36,642 nt of DNA, taken from the IMG/VR virus record IMGVR_UViG_3300036772_000071, positions 1-36,642 of that record. One strand, given 5' to 3'. Under the pieces are notes generated by a model. That model did not search any database. It was not told the DNA's origin and saw nothing but the letters and a program-made list of their open reading frames with translations. Below, piece after piece: positions 14,087-35,227 of this stretch. Within the stretch, counting starts at the first letter, position 1. Each line of letters starts with the position of its first letter. A program made the position numbers and the translations under genes. The DNA comes from a virus.

Positions 14087-14122
14087 TAGTGCCCCGTCGC
14101 CCTCACGGGGTAACATTCGACA
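14087..14122 (+). promoter_or_regulatory. Promoter with inverted repeat, copy 6, leadered
   Basis: TAGTGC (14087-14092), an 18-bp spacer and TAACAT (14111-14116) repeat the geometry of the leaderless elements, with CCCC/GGGG arms. Here the ATG is 30 bases after the -10 box and has GAGAGGA just before it, so the mRNA would have a leader of about 24 bases. The element also lies just upstream of the leftward gene starting at 14074, so it may influence both strands. Confidence 0.65.
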
Positions 14123-14146: not shown

Positions 14147-14632
14147 ATGCTGCCGCTGATCGTGATCGGCGCGACCCAGGCAATGACGGACCTGCTGCAC
14201 CCGTATGCCGAGGTCGGGCATATCGAGTACCACCGTAGCGCCGAGGAGGCGCACTGGACGCTGAGTGACGCGCTCAACCGCGCCTACAGCGCCTCGGGCG
14301 TGACCGAGCTGCTGGTGCAGGCCACCGAGGATGGCCGCTGGCAGGCCCACGTCGCCTATGGCCCGGACTGCTTCGGCCCGATCGCGGTCGCGCGTGTCGG
14401 TACCAATCCGCCCCTGCTCGGGCACATGGGCCACACGCTGCTGCTCGGCTACGAGGTGCACGAGCCACCCGCCAACATCCGCGTGCGCGACGGCGCCGAG
14501 GCCGGGATGCCCGAGGACACGATGATCTGGCAGGCGGCTGTCCTCGCCTCGGCGGACCTGATCGTGGACATGGCCTCACCTGAGGCGATCAGCCACATGG
14601 CCAACTACCTGGAATGGAAGGACGCAAGCTGA
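14147..14632 (+). CDS. Hypothetical protein, 161 aa
   Basis: ATG 14147 has GAGAGGA upstream and follows the copy-6 promoter. The protein starts MLPLIVIGATQAMTDLLHP, continues as alternating helices and strands (AEEAHWTLSDALNRAYSASG, VTELLVQATEDGRWQAHV) and ends in a helix rich in Met and Ala (ISHMANYLEWKDAS). It looks like a compact cytoplasmic domain. The next gene starts in its stop. Function is unknown. Confidence 0.78.
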   Translation: MLPLIVIGATQAMTDLLHPYAEVGHIEYHRSAEEAHWTLSDALNRAYSASGVTELLVQATEDGRWQAHVAYGPDCFGPIAVARVGTNPPLLGHMGHTLLLGYEVHEPPANIRVRDGAEAGMPEDTMIWQAAVLASADLIVDMASPEAISHMANYLEWKDAS

Positions 14633-15052: not shown

Positions 15053-15088
15053 TTGTGCCCCGTAGTGTACCGGGGGTACATTGTGTCC
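15053..15088 (+). promoter_or_regulatory. Leaderless promoter with inverted repeat, copy 2
   Basis: TTGTGC (15053-15058), an 18-bp spacer and TACATT (15077-15082) are followed by exactly 6 bases and ATG 15089. The spacer carries CCCC and GGGGG arms of the inverted repeat. No ribosome-binding site precedes the ATG. It starts a unit that ends at the hairpin 15909-15941. Confidence 0.78.
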
Positions 15089-15307
15089 ATGACCCAGAAC
15101 AGCCCGGACTACACCACCACCTGCACCCTCTGTCACGAGGACATCGCATGGGTGGAGGAGCATGGTGACGGCTTCTGGGTCGCACCATCCGGCTACGAGG
15201 GCTGTCCTGACCCGCAGCAGCCCGACGCGGGCATCTTCCCGCACGAGCCTGCCGACGATTCCGCCTACTGGGCCTGGGTCGCCCGCAATGAGGAAGTTCC
15301 CGCATGA
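15089..15307 (+). CDS. Leaderless small protein, 72 aa
   Basis: ATG 15089 is six bases after the copy-2 -10 box. A longer frame from 15044 would start inside the promoter and has no ribosome-binding site, so it is rejected. The protein has a CTLC pair near residue 12, followed by a beta hairpin (EEHGDGFWVAPSGYEGC) and an acidic, Pro-rich C-terminus (PQQPDAGIFPHEPADDSAY). The two cysteine pairs could bind one metal ion. It overlaps the next gene by four bases. Confidence 0.8.
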   Translation: MTQNSPDYTTTCTLCHEDIAWVEEHGDGFWVAPSGYEGCPDPQQPDAGIFPHEPADDSAYWAWVARNEEVPA

Positions 15308-16775: not shown

Positions 16776-16977
16776 GCCGAACTGTCCGGCCGTGACGGTG
16801 GGCGAGGGTGCGCCGTGCCGCTGGTTGCCACTTGCTCCACTCTCGGCGCCGTATGGCCCGGTCGTGGACGGCAAGCCGATCAAGGTGCTGGAGGTGTGCA
16901 CGGGCTGCCGTCGCTACCGTGTTGCTGGTTACAGCCCTGTACCCCGTGACCCGACCGGGGGTACACTCGCGTCATGA
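16759..16977 (+). CDS. Small Cys-containing protein, 72 aa
   Basis: GTG 16759 follows a GCAGC stretch. The product has four cysteines (NCPAV, PCRWL, VCTGCRRY) and many Pro, a composition seen in small zinc-binding proteins. Its last 40 bases lie under the copy-3 promoter of the next gene, and its stop overlaps that gene's ATG. Function is unknown. Confidence 0.7.
   Translation: MSTEPEPNCPAVTVGEGAPCRWLPLAPLSAPYGPVVDGKPIKVLEVCTGCRRYRVAGYSPVPRDPTGGTLAS
16937..16973 (+). promoter_or_regulatory. Leaderless promoter with inverted repeat, copy 3
   Basis: CTGTAC (16937-16942), a 19-bp spacer and TACACT (16962-16967) are followed by 6 bases and ATG 16974. Arms GTACCCC and GGGGTAC form the inverted repeat. 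The element overlaps the end of the 16759 gene. It starts a unit of four small genes that ends at the terminator 17793-17827. Confidence 0.75.
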
Positions 16978-17222
16978 TGATCCTCCCCGCAGTCCGCTTC
17001 CGCCACCACGTCTACTTCTACCGTCGCCATCGGCGCCTCAACCGCTGGAGCCCGCTGTACTGGCTGTTCGGCGGCTGGCTGTTCGAACTGTCCATGTGGA
17101 CGCTGATTGGCTCGGCGATCGTGGCCTTCTGGTCGCTCTACGGGTTCCTGTGGCTGGTCGTCACGGGCGCGGGCATCGCATTCCGCATGGTCCGCGCCAC
17201 GATCCACAACAGGAGGCACTGA
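16974..17222 (+). CDS. Two-helix membrane protein, leaderless, 82 aa
   Basis: ATG 16974 is six bases after the copy-3 -10 box and has no ribosome-binding site. Two hydrophobic helices are visible (LYWLFGGWLFELSMWTL and IVAFWSLYGFLWLVVTGAGI), with a basic Arg-rich N-terminus (RFRHHVYFYRRHRR) suggesting a cytoplasmic start. The last 20 residues are basic. It is a small integral membrane protein of unknown function, rich in Trp and Phe. Confidence 0.78.
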   Translation: MMILPAVRFRHHVYFYRRHRRLNRWSPLYWLFGGWLFELSMWTLIGSAIVAFWSLYGFLWLVVTGAGIAFRMVRATIHNRRH

Positions 17223-31660: not shown

Positions 31661-31698
31661 GATGGCCGCTCCGGTCTCAGCCTTCCGGGGCGGCCATC
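31661..31698. terminator. Bidirectional terminator between convergent genes
   Basis: A 14-bp stem with one G-T pair, GATGGCCGCTCCGG (31661-31674) with its partner at 31685-31698 and a 10-base loop. It lies between the rightward holin-like gene and the end of the leftward HNH gene, and overlaps the last codons of the HNH gene. Confidence 0.78.
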
Positions 31699-32051
31699 TG
31701 CATCTGGAGGTAAGCGCCCTCGTCGGACAGCAGCGCCCACTGCCGGCCGAGCAGCCAGACCGGCTCCAGCCGGGGGACCGAGTTACCGGCCAGTAGGTAG
31801 CCGCGTGCGTAGGCCCAGGCGACCGCGAGGTGGACCGAGGGCGTGCCCAGGTTGTGGATGTGGTGCGTCAGGGCCATCACGTTGGACAGGGTGTGCGTGT
31901 CGGCGCGGGCCGTGCCACCCATTCCGCGCTGTCTGCGGTGATGCAGTGCCCACGACTCGCCGAGCGGCATCCCGGTGATCTCACACCTGCCCTGTGCCCG
32001 CTCGTAGACCTGAGCACGTAGTTTGCCGGCATCGTAAGAGATCTTGCTCAT
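31677..32051 (-). CDS. HNH endonuclease-like protein, 124 aa
   Basis: ATG at 32051 (GTG 32054 also possible) has GGAGGAG seven bases upstream on the lower strand. The protein has a C-E-I-T-G turn, then LHHRRQRGMGG, LSNVMALTHH and IHNLGTPSVH, the His-His, Asn and His of an HNH nuclease. The tail is a helical region (LAVAWAYARGYLLAG). HNH proteins in phages act in packaging or as mobile nucleases. It is 124 residues, a free-standing size, and away from the portal. Confidence 0.85.
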   Translation of the reverse strand: MSKISYDAGKLRAQVYERAQGRCEITGMPLGESWALHHRRQRGMGGTARADTHTLSNVMALTHHIHNLGTPSVHLAVAWAYARGYLLAGNSVPRLEPVWLLGRQWALLSDEGAYLQMQMAAPEG

Positions 32052-32087
32052 CACACCACTCCTCCACGTTGTGCCCCCGACAGTATA
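32051..32087 (-). promoter_or_regulatory. Promoter for the HNH gene
   Basis: On the lower strand a TATACT -10 box (32087-32082) is followed by a leader of about 24 bases with GGAGGAG before ATG 32051. A TTGGTC box lies 19 bases upstream of it. It overlaps the spacer of the rightward leaderless promoter, so both cannot be fully occupied at once. Confidence 0.55.
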
Positions 32088-32104
32088 GGGGGTAACATTG
32101 CCGC
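32069..32104 (+). promoter_or_regulatory. Leaderless promoter with inverted repeat, copy 4
   Basis: TTGTGC (32069-32074), an 18-bp spacer with CCCCC/GGGGG arms and TAACAT (32093-32098) are followed by 6 bases and ATG 32105. It starts the recombination operon and overlaps a leftward promoter. There is no ribosome-binding site before the ATG. Confidence 0.78.
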
Positions 32105-32566
32105 ATGACCAACTCCAGCACTCACAGCCAGGCGCTGTCCGAGCTGGCCGTGCGCTACACGGCCGAGGCCGCGCCGGTCACGGCCGAGCCCGAGGCGGAC
32201 GACAGCGCGGTTCGCGGCAAGCAGGAGATCGATCTGCTGATCGACAAGGATGTCTATGCAGCCGCGATGACGCGCGCCAACCATCAGGGTCGGACTGTCT
32301 CGGCGGTCGCGCGTGCGGTGCTGTTCCTGGCCGCAGCCGACGCCCAGCCGGATCCGGCATACCGCAGTCAGCACACCCGTCCCCCGCTGCGGGCCTACCG
32401 CAGCCCGGACGACCGGACGCGCCTGCGGTTCAAGCTGCCCCGAGCTGACTACGAGGTGGCACGACAGACGATCATGCAGTCCGGCAACTCGGTCAGCGCG
32501 GCCGTGGAGGACGGACTGCGGACCTACGCCCGCACCGGCACCATCCGATCCACCAATGACGACTGA
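32105..32566 (+). CDS. Tandem ribbon-helix-helix-like DNA-binding protein, 153 aa
   Basis: ATG 32105 is six bases after the copy-4 -10 box. Two similar segments are present: residues 40-77 (EIDLLIDKDVYAAAMTRANH, turn QGRTVS, helix AVARAVLFLAAA) and residues 105-143 (RLRFKLPRADYEVARQTIM, turn SGNSVS, helix AAVEDGLRTYART). Each is a strand, helix, G-x-(S/T)-V-S turn, helix, the ribbon-helix-helix pattern. Two tandem units would let one chain act like a dimer. The gene may control its own promoter and the others of the same type. Confidence 0.8.
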   Translation: MTNSSTHSQALSELAVRYTAEAAPVTAEPEADDSAVRGKQEIDLLIDKDVYAAAMTRANHQGRTVSAVARAVLFLAAADAQPDPAYRSQHTRPPLRAYRSPDDRTRLRFKLPRADYEVARQTIMQSGNSVSAAVEDGLRTYARTGTIRSTNDD

Positions 32567-32585: not shown

Positions 32586-33482
32586 ATGACCGATCAACCC
32601 GCAGTCCTCGGTGCCGTCGCGGCCGTGATGGACAGCGTCCGCAGCATCGCCAAGGGCGACCGTGGCCCGAGGGAGCAGGGCAGCTACAAGTACCGCAGTG
32701 CCGAGGACGTGGTGAACGAGCTCGGCGTTGCGTTCCGCGAGCAGGCCCTGTTCCTTCAGTCCCGCGTCGTCTCCACCGAGCACACCACCCACACGACCAG
32801 CGGCAAAGAGGGTCGCACCACCACCTGGTCCCGCAGCATGGTGACGATGGAGTACACGATCACCAGCCTCGTGGACGGCTCCACGCTGGTCTGCCAGGGT
32901 GCCGGCTCGGGCCTGGACCAGAGCGACAAGGATCGCAACAAGGCGATGACCGCAGCGCACAAATACGCGCTGTGCCAGGCATTCATGATTCCGACCGGCG
33001 ATGCCGACCCGGACAGTGAGGCGCCGAGCCCGGTCGACACCCCTGCCGCTCGGGCGGTCGCCGAGCGTCGTGCCGCGCAGCAGCCTCCCGCAGCCGCCCC
33101 GGCCGTCGCCGAGGCTGTCCGGGACAACGTCAATGCTGCGATCGACCCGCACACCTCGGGGCGGGTGCAGGCTGGCGTTGCACCCGCCGAGCAGCAGCTG
33201 ACGCAGCAGGTGCAGGCGACCGAGCGGGCCGCGACCGAGGCGATCACCGAGGCGAGCAAGCTCTGGGTGCAGGCCGAGGGGCGGGGTGAGCTCCCCACCT
33301 TCACCCCCGAGCAGCAGAAGCGCTCCGTGGCCGCGCTCGTGGCCGCCCACACCGCCAAGGACCGGCACACCATCAACCGCATCATCTTGGCGGCCAAGGC
33401 CGAGGGCATCCTGAACAGCATCCCCGAGGCCAACGGCCAGACGCTCGCCGGTCGCCTGGCCGCAGGTCGGGGGTTGGTGTGA
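32586..33482 (+). CDS. ERF-family single-strand annealing recombinase, 298 aa
   Basis: ATG 32586 has AACAGGAGATC upstream. The ERF family landmarks are visible: GSYKYRSAEDVVNELGVAF near the N-terminus and GSGLDQSDKDRNKAMTAAHK then YALCQAFMIPTG near residue 130. ERF proteins anneal complementary single strands in phage recombination. The C-terminal 140 residues are an Ala/Gln/Pro linker then a helical region (EEQQKRSVAALVAAHT-like). The next gene overlaps it, and SSB lies two genes further. Confidence 0.93.
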   Translation: MTDQPAVLGAVAAVMDSVRSIAKGDRGPREQGSYKYRSAEDVVNELGVAFREQALFLQSRVVSTEHTTHTTSGKEGRTTTWSRSMVTMEYTITSLVDGSTLVCQGAGSGLDQSDKDRNKAMTAAHKYALCQAFMIPTGDADPDSEAPSPVDTPAARAVAERRAAQQPPAAAPAVAEAVRDNVNAAIDPHTSGRVQAGVAPAEQQLTQQVQATERAATEAITEASKLWVQAEGRGELPTFTPEQQKRSVAALVAAHTAKDRHTINRIILAAKAEGILNSIPEANGQTLAGRLAAGRGLV

Positions 33483-34383: not shown

Positions 34384-34875
34384 ATGGCTGGAGATACGTC
34401 GATCGTCGTGGTGGGTAACCTCACCGCCGATCCTGAGCTGCGGTTCACCGCGTCCGGCGCGGCCGTCGCCAACTTCACGGTCGCGAGCACGCCCCGCAAG
34501 TTCGACAAGGCGAGCGGGCAGTGGCAGGACGGAGACGCGCTGTTCATGCGGTGCAGCGTGTGGCGCCAGTACGCCGAGAACGTGGCGGAGAGCCTGACTC
34601 GGGGCATGCGCGTGATCGTGCAGGGCAACCTGGTGCAGCGCTCCTACGACACCAAGGAGGGCGAGAAGCGCACCGTGTTCGAGCTCCAGGTGGAGGAGGT
34701 CGGGCCGTCACTGCGGTACGCGACCGCGAAGGTCAACAAGGCTGAGCGACAGGGCGGCCAGCAGCAGCGTCCGGCGCAGCAGCAAACCCCACCGGCCGAC
34801 GACCCCTGGGGCCAAGCGCCCGCGCCTGCCGGCCAGCAGGCCGGGTTCGACTACTCGGGTGAACCACCCTTCTAG
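34384..34875 (+). CDS. ssb: Single-stranded DNA-binding protein, 163 aa
   Basis: ATG 34384 has AACAGGAGATC upstream. The OB-fold is clear ([72 protein letters not shown]). A Gln/Pro-rich linker follows, and the end is FDYSGEPPF, an acidic-hydrophobic tip like the usual DDIPF. It protects single-stranded DNA and works with ERF. Length is normal for the family. Confidence 0.95.
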
Positions 34876-34885
34876 GGCGTACCGG

Positions 34886-34921
34886 TTGTGCCCCGCTCGA
34901 CTACGGGGGTACATTGTTCCC
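34886..34921 (+). promoter_or_regulatory. Leaderless promoter with inverted repeat, copy 5
   Basis: TTGTGC (34886-34891), an 18-bp spacer with CCCC/GGGGG arms and TACATT (34910-34915) are followed by 6 bases and ATG 34922. It lies in the short gap after SSB. No ribosome-binding site precedes the ATG. Confidence 0.78.
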
Positions 34922-35227
34922 ATGACCACTACTACCGCAGCCGCGCTCCTAAGCCTCAAGGCCAAGAGCGCGGCTGACTACTACCTGGCCGTGGCGATCG
35001 TCCCGACGACCGGCGTGGAGCACATGACCTGCACGCGGTGCGACGAGGGCAAGTGCGTCGCCGTGGTCAGCTTCAGCCGCAACGAGCCGACCGAGGGCGC
35101 CGAGCGCAACTACCGCGACGTGTGCCTGGCGTGCGTCATCCCGCTCATCGACTCGATCGACTACCTCAACACCGACGAGCCGATCGAAGTGGAGGTGTCC
35201 CGTGGCGCAACCAACAGGCCGTTTTGA
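34922..35227 (+). CDS. Leaderless Cys-rich protein, 101 aa
   Basis: ATG 34922 is six bases after the copy-5 -10 box. An open frame from 34859 would begin inside the SSB gene and cross the promoter, so it is rejected. The protein has CTRCDEGKC near residue 37 and CLAC near residue 70, a plausible zinc site made of two Cys pairs. The rest is a sheet and helix (YRDVCLACVIPLIDSIDYLN). It overlaps the next gene by 26 bases. Confidence 0.82.
   Translation: MTTTTAAALLSLKAKSAADYYLAVAIVPTTGVEHMTCTRCDEGKCVAVVSFSRNEPTEGAERNYRDVCLACVIPLIDSIDYLNTDEPIEVEVSRGATNRPF

Follow-up and report, generated by a model that had tools for sequence, protein, structure and literature searches.

The HNH-RHH-ERF locus and the predicted fold of its central protein

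The window, meaning the whole stretch of 36,642 nucleotides analysed here (positions 1 to 36,642 of IMG/VR record IMGVR_UViG_3300036772_000071; G000), carries at 32105-32566 on the plus strand a gene for a predicted tandem ribbon-helix-helix (RHH) protein of 153 amino acids (P0001), an assignment based on the open reading frame, on AlphaFold2 models, and on relatives in three further contigs (G003, G005 and G010). An HNH endonuclease gene is encoded divergently on the minus strand (31677-32054; PHROG 740, E 4e-21), a gene for an ERF-type ssDNA-annealing protein lies directly 3' of the RHH gene (32586-33482, plus strand; PHROG 155, E 2.5e-21), and a single-strand DNA-binding protein (SSB) is encoded at 34384-34875 on the plus strand (PHROG 44, E 1.3e-49). 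The intergenic gap between the HNH and RHH genes measures about 50 bp and holds little besides one copy of a repeated promoter-like element; an autoregulator of the RHH gene would therefore have to act there. On the minus strand, a sigma-70-like site (32111-32082, TGGTCA-18-TATACT) overlaps this copy, and the element may thus also control the HNH gene.

The fold of the protein was modelled with AlphaFold2 from an alignment with its three relatives. A strand at residues 39-47 followed by helices at 48-60 and 65-79 was predicted, and then a strand at 104-112 followed by helices at 113-125 and 130-144 (pLDDT about 83 in the units; pTM 0.67). The first unit (residues 39-79; 32219-32341, plus strand) comprises the strand KQEIDLLID, two helices and the turn QGRTVS, and the second (residues 104-144; 32414-32536, plus strand) comprises the strand RTRLRFKLP, two helices and the turn SGNSVS. 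The initial annotation had placed RHH-like units at residues 40-77 and 105-143, which agree almost to the residue with those modelled, and the G-x-(S/T)-V-S turn that it ascribed to each was found as GRTVS (62-66) and GNSVS (127-131), the glycine of the first turn not being kept in the most distant relative. The relative in G005 (141 amino acids, 40% identical), modelled as its own query, gave a strand at 36-44 with helices at 45-57 and 62-76 and a strand at 98-106 with helices at 107-120 and 124-138, and this model was the more confident of the two (pTM 0.74; pLDDT mostly 82-91 within the units). The strand-helix-helix unit was consequently predicted twice per chain, independently, for two sequences only 40% identical, which is the outcome that the initial annotation had looked for in structure prediction. 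DSSP assigned no strands in either model other than these two, and both units were covered in the alignments to TraY. As modelled, the protein holds two RHH units in one polypeptide, laid out like one RHH dimer.

Comparison of both models with solved structures returned as top match a chain of the F-plasmid relaxosome (9f0y_G; Z 7.3 for the window protein and 8.1 for the G005 relative), which is taken to be TraY from the length, number and fold of such chains, the entry itself printing a title alone. AvtR came next (4hv0_A; Z 5.7 and 5.9) and DndE matched more weakly (Z 4.2-5.2); Z values below 8 are middling according to the notes of the search tool, and unrelated structures mostly scored 2-3.4. 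Matches to non-ribosomal peptide synthetase condensation domains and similar large proteins had a large rmsd and were discarded as noise. At the sequence level, the window protein had no match in Pfam, the PF01402 profile had none in the window, a search of the protein against sequences of solved structures gave chance-level matches only, and PHROG 6506 (Arc-like) matched weakly over residues 49-73 (E 0.08). The missing match to a curated profile lowers the case for sequence membership in the RHH (MetJ/Arc) superfamily, but does not lower the claim about the fold.

The two predicted strands differ in charge. Residues R104, R106, R108 and K110 of the second strand alternate with core residues, and the three arginines are invariant across all four relatives. 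The first strand of the window protein turns an acidic face outward (E41, D43 and D47), which counts against the regulator reading; E41 is invariant and position 43 is either Asp or Glu. Judged by the alternation of residues in the sequence, R104, R106, R108 and K110 would be suited to guanine contacts, and E41 and D43 could contact cytosines.

Copies and anatomy of the promoter element

The element has the common form TTGTGCCCC-N11-GGGGTA(AC/CA)NT, i.e., TTGNNN-N18-TANNNT, and six copies are present in the window, starting at 2010, 14087, 15053, 16938, 32069 and 34886. The initial annotation had described six leaderless elements over 33 kb; the number and the span (32.9 kb) hold, but an ATG follows the element by exactly 6 nt in five copies and the sixth belongs to a leadered gene. 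The copy of the RHH gene (32069-32098; TTGTGC-N18-TAACAT with C-run and G-run) has the ATG 6 nt downstream of its -10, so that the gene does start directly from the element as had been noted. Leaderless starts are likewise found behind the copies at 2010-2039 (TGTACCCCCG/CGGGGGTACA, a perfect dyad; ORF 2046-2252), 15053-15082 (ORF 15089-15307), 16938-16967 (TGTACCCC/GGGGTACA; ORF 16974-17222, a small membrane-type protein; G001 and G003 also have an element followed by a similar protein) and 34886-34915 (just past the SSB gene; ORF 34922-35227). The remaining copy (14087-14116), whose position is kept in G001 and G003, precedes the gene at 14147-14632 with an intervening leader that carries a GAGAGGA ribosome-binding site; all six copies lie on the plus strand. 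Behind an element in G001, G002 and G003 there is a protein that looks similar to the product of 14147-14632 (MLPLIVIG.../MLPIVAVG...). A weaker element-like site in G003 (48325, minus strand), which may be a chance occurrence, lies near the gene at 48365-49039, which appears ParB-like by eye and had no Pfam match.

A consensus scan of the window gave 5 matches versus about 0.8 per shuffled sequence, and these were four element copies and one likely chance match; the copies at 2010 and 16938 lie outside that scan and are exact matches of a separate element pattern. Of 44 copies compared across eight contigs, at least 35 have a spacer of 17 or 18 between TTG and TANNNT, and 25 have an ATG at 6 or 7 nt. 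The best reading of the element is a SigA-type promoter that usually yields leaderless transcripts, and the G/C arms, being upstream of the expected start, would act as DNA and not as RNA. Covariation between the arms was significant when copies were pooled (p 0.002) but not within genomes (p 0.26), and it was therefore rejected as proof of a dyad; the dyad symmetry rests instead on both runs being conserved. C-run and G-run are 15-16 bp apart in the window, and apparently closer together in some copies of G005; a distance of 15-16 bp is not an integral helical repeat, which speaks against a simple rigid dimer.

One alternative is that the element is simply the strong SigA promoter of this lineage, perhaps helped by WhiB, with the runs as promoter features and the RHH protein acting elsewhere or on its own gene. 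The attachment of the arms to the -35 and -10, which lie 17-18 bp apart in most copies, is consistent with this, as are the use of the element by leadered and leaderless genes alike and the occurrence of WhiB genes in G001-G004. Conversely, the copies at 2010 and 16938 lack the TTG and still have perfect TGTACCCC/GGGGTACA arms, and the strict leaderless element had a single match in 84,980 bacterial and archaeal species genomes (a Gemmatimonadetes metagenome-assembled contig, taken as chance), which is odd for a plain host promoter. This near-absence speaks against a type of promoter common in hosts, and a host-regulon reading is disfavoured by it, other promoter contexts still being allowed. 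WhiB was also considered as the regulator of the elements and was set aside, because G005 holds 13 elements and had no WhiB match in the Pfam scan in which G003 did. Altogether, we consider the plain-promoter alternative unlikely, if far from negligible. WhiB-type genes are located at L010:3292-3615, L009:13224-13466, G001:4168-4347 and G004:1279-1470, three of the four with an element no more than about 100 bp away; they suggest a second transcription factor in the lineage, and their presence in G001-G004 points to actinobacterial hosts.

Co-occurrence of gene and element in related contigs

Scans for the element alone yielded G001, G002 and G003 and then G004-G009, and G010 was found through the RHH protein. 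The portal protein, where present, is 40-68% identical to that of the window, a capsid protein is common to most contigs, and searches with tape measure, capsid and portal proteins among cultured phages returned distant matches only. By these sequence comparisons, the element-bearing contigs with testable markers form one uncultured lineage with distant cultured relatives only, the larger contigs of which carry 4-13 element copies. No relatives of the RHH protein were found by tblastn in cultured phages, nor by two peptide patterns of the protein run on the genome_contigs collection. A segment of G003 (49404-52098) encodes an amino acid:DNA transferase (PF18724), a DAO-type oxidoreductase and a P-loop nucleotide kinase and is likely a thymine hypermodification cluster; PF18724 had no match in the window, G001, G002, G004 or G005.

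Relatives of the RHH gene are present in G003 (63% identity), G010 (66%, truncated where the contig ends) and G005 (40%). In all four contigs with the gene, including the window, its ATG lies 6-7 nt past an element copy and the HNH gene is divergent from it, and in the three that continue, ERF follows on the 3' side with SSB nearby. G005 was found by the element pattern only, and its possession of the RHH gene (E 1.8e-28) in addition to its 13 elements is thus a prediction passed; the element of the RHH gene itself is degenerate there (TTGTAACCC...CGGGTAGCAT), in the same place and among the weakest copies, which counts against the regulator reading. Seven contigs have elements and no RHH gene (G001, G002, G004 and G006-G009), but none of them covers the HNH-RHH-ERF segment, and ERF, SSB and HNH had no match in them. 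Every contig that spans the region accordingly has both the gene and the elements, as the regulator proposal had anticipated, and the elements were not encountered in phages shown to lack the gene. In G011, an ERF gene is present and the elements and the RHH gene are both absent, which fits the pairing and counts weakly because it is a different phage. Because all testable element contigs belong to one lineage, the co-occurrence may also be plain inheritance.

Pfam scans of the two 60-kb contigs G003 and G005 covered genes up to about 420 amino acids and few longer ORFs. An HTH_36 protein was found near the DnaB gene in each, and the scanned genes gave no match to a cI-like or MerR-like family. 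Apart from HTH_36 and the WhiB of G003, no other likely regulator was seen, which makes the RHH protein the leading candidate for the regulator of the element promoters. A different host or phage protein, such as a dimeric HTH repressor encoded in an uncovered part, could instead bind the inverted repeats and have the RHH gene as one of its targets. The size and symmetry of the arms would suit a dimeric HTH operator, and most contigs are fragments; beyond WhiB, however, the scans of G003 and G005 offer for this role only the HTH_36 protein near DnaB and a weak HTH match before the large terminase, and we regard such a protein as improbable.

The RHH protein could also be a DNA-architecture or recombination accessory, comparable to TraY or DndE, that works with ERF and HNH at its own site. 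TraY is the closest fold, and the ERF, HNH and SSB genes are its neighbours. Against this, the elements do not gather at a single origin but serve as promoters for small genes in scattered places, neither a relaxase gene nor Dnd genes were recognised beside the RHH gene, and the general Pfam scan recognised no relaxase among the scanned genes of G003 and G005. This role is the least probable of those considered, and we give it very little weight.

A proposed single-chain tandem RHH regulator and its counterparts

The computation supports the fold, the promoter-like anatomy, the repetition of the elements and the conserved pairing of gene and element, and binding as well as the sign, stoichiometry and timing of regulation are inferred. 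The RHH protein is most likely an autoregulated, phage-wide transcription regulator, and probably a repressor. In the explanation as a whole, to which we assign a probability of roughly 0.6, a single-chain tandem RHH regulator would repress the element promoters as two chains. Each element would be a SigA-type promoter, TTGNNN-N17/18-TANNNT, with a C-run beside the -35 and a G-run beside the -10, from most copies of which transcription would begin at or beside the ATG. The two RHH units of a chain would form one antiparallel ribbon and read one arm, and two chains per promoter, seated on the two runs between -35 and -10, would exclude RNA polymerase. The protein would thereby repress the gene that encodes it together with the ERF operon that follows and, bound in the same way to the remaining copies, would coordinate accessory genes with recombination; besides ERF, the regulon would consist mainly of small genes of unassigned function.

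The initial annotation had one two-unit chain bind both arms. In TraY and AvtR, however, the paired units make a single ribbon that behaves as an ordinary RHH dimer does (PMC12117103, PMC5569661). The models contain only two strands and a strand assignment needs pairing, so that one chain is expected to supply one ribbon for one DNA arm. The regulator interpretation is thus upheld in its folds and its co-occurrence with the elements, but not in its use of one chain for two arms. A more specific version, in which the ribbon is lopsided and the R104/R106/R108 strand reads the G-run while the E41/D43 strand reads cytosines across a leaderless regulon, is possible but tentative.

Scattered SigA-like promoters with inverted repeats are used by actinophages of more than one lineage. 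Here, a related architecture comes with a candidate protein, with a conserved autogenous layout and with a target short enough to be synthesised, which makes the question directly testable. A regulatory role of the RHH protein is likely, and it would act by binding to the promoters. If the binding is true, tailed phages would join archaeal viruses and plasmids as users of single-chain tandem RHH regulation, and the G/C-run target would suit genomes rich in GC. If the lopsided ribbon is true as well, the protein would give bacteriophages a counterpart to AvtR, the regulator of an archaeal virus, and would offer a type of regulator for those actinophage promoter/inverted-repeat elements that are still without a known one.

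The ESAS elements of cluster K mycobacteriophages contain an imperfect inverted repeat and SigA-like hexamers with a spacing of 17-18 bp, and they precede a scattered subset of genes (PMC3203893, PMC11373665); a regulator that binds the repeats has been proposed, its identity being called unclear by the authors (PMC11373665). The element of this lineage shares the SigA-like -35 and -10, the 17-18 bp spacing and the inverted repeat, but differs in sequence. A 13-bp SAS and a leader usually accompany ESAS (PMC3203893, PMC11373665), and this SAS, GGGATAGGAGCCC, had 0 matches with up to 2 mismatches allowed. An RHH profile run on the cluster K phage Anaya returned nothing, an empty answer that shows little. 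In mycobacteriophage BPs, the repressor gp33 acts at several dispersed sites, with operators of two half sites and a variable spacer (PMC4557955); the dispersed two-half-site layout is similar, whereas the protein is a different one and the half sites are palindromic and 12 bp long.

Among proteins with the tandem fold, TraY of the F plasmid holds a whole RHH-dimer fold in one polypeptide (PDB 9f0x-9f12; PMC12117103) and is the best structural match to both models (Z 7.3-8.1), but it acts at oriT in the relaxosome, whereas oriT and a relaxase were not recognised here and the neighbours are HNH, ERF and SSB. DndE has two tandem RHH units per chain (PMC10853773), but its partners are DndD-type ABC ATPases in DNA modification/phosphorothioation, none of which was recognised here. 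The closest parallel in function is AvtR of Acidianus filamentous virus 6 (PDB 4hv0), a viral single-chain tandem RHH protein that is monomeric when it binds DNA, acts as repressor of the gene encoding it and has eight potential sites in the virus genome (PMC5569661). AvtR belongs to an archaeal virus with AT-rich sites and TATA-type promoters, and its sequence relation to the window protein is not detectable; the layout, with an element before the RHH gene in four of four contigs and further copies in the larger contigs, would be AvtR-like if the RHH protein binds the elements.
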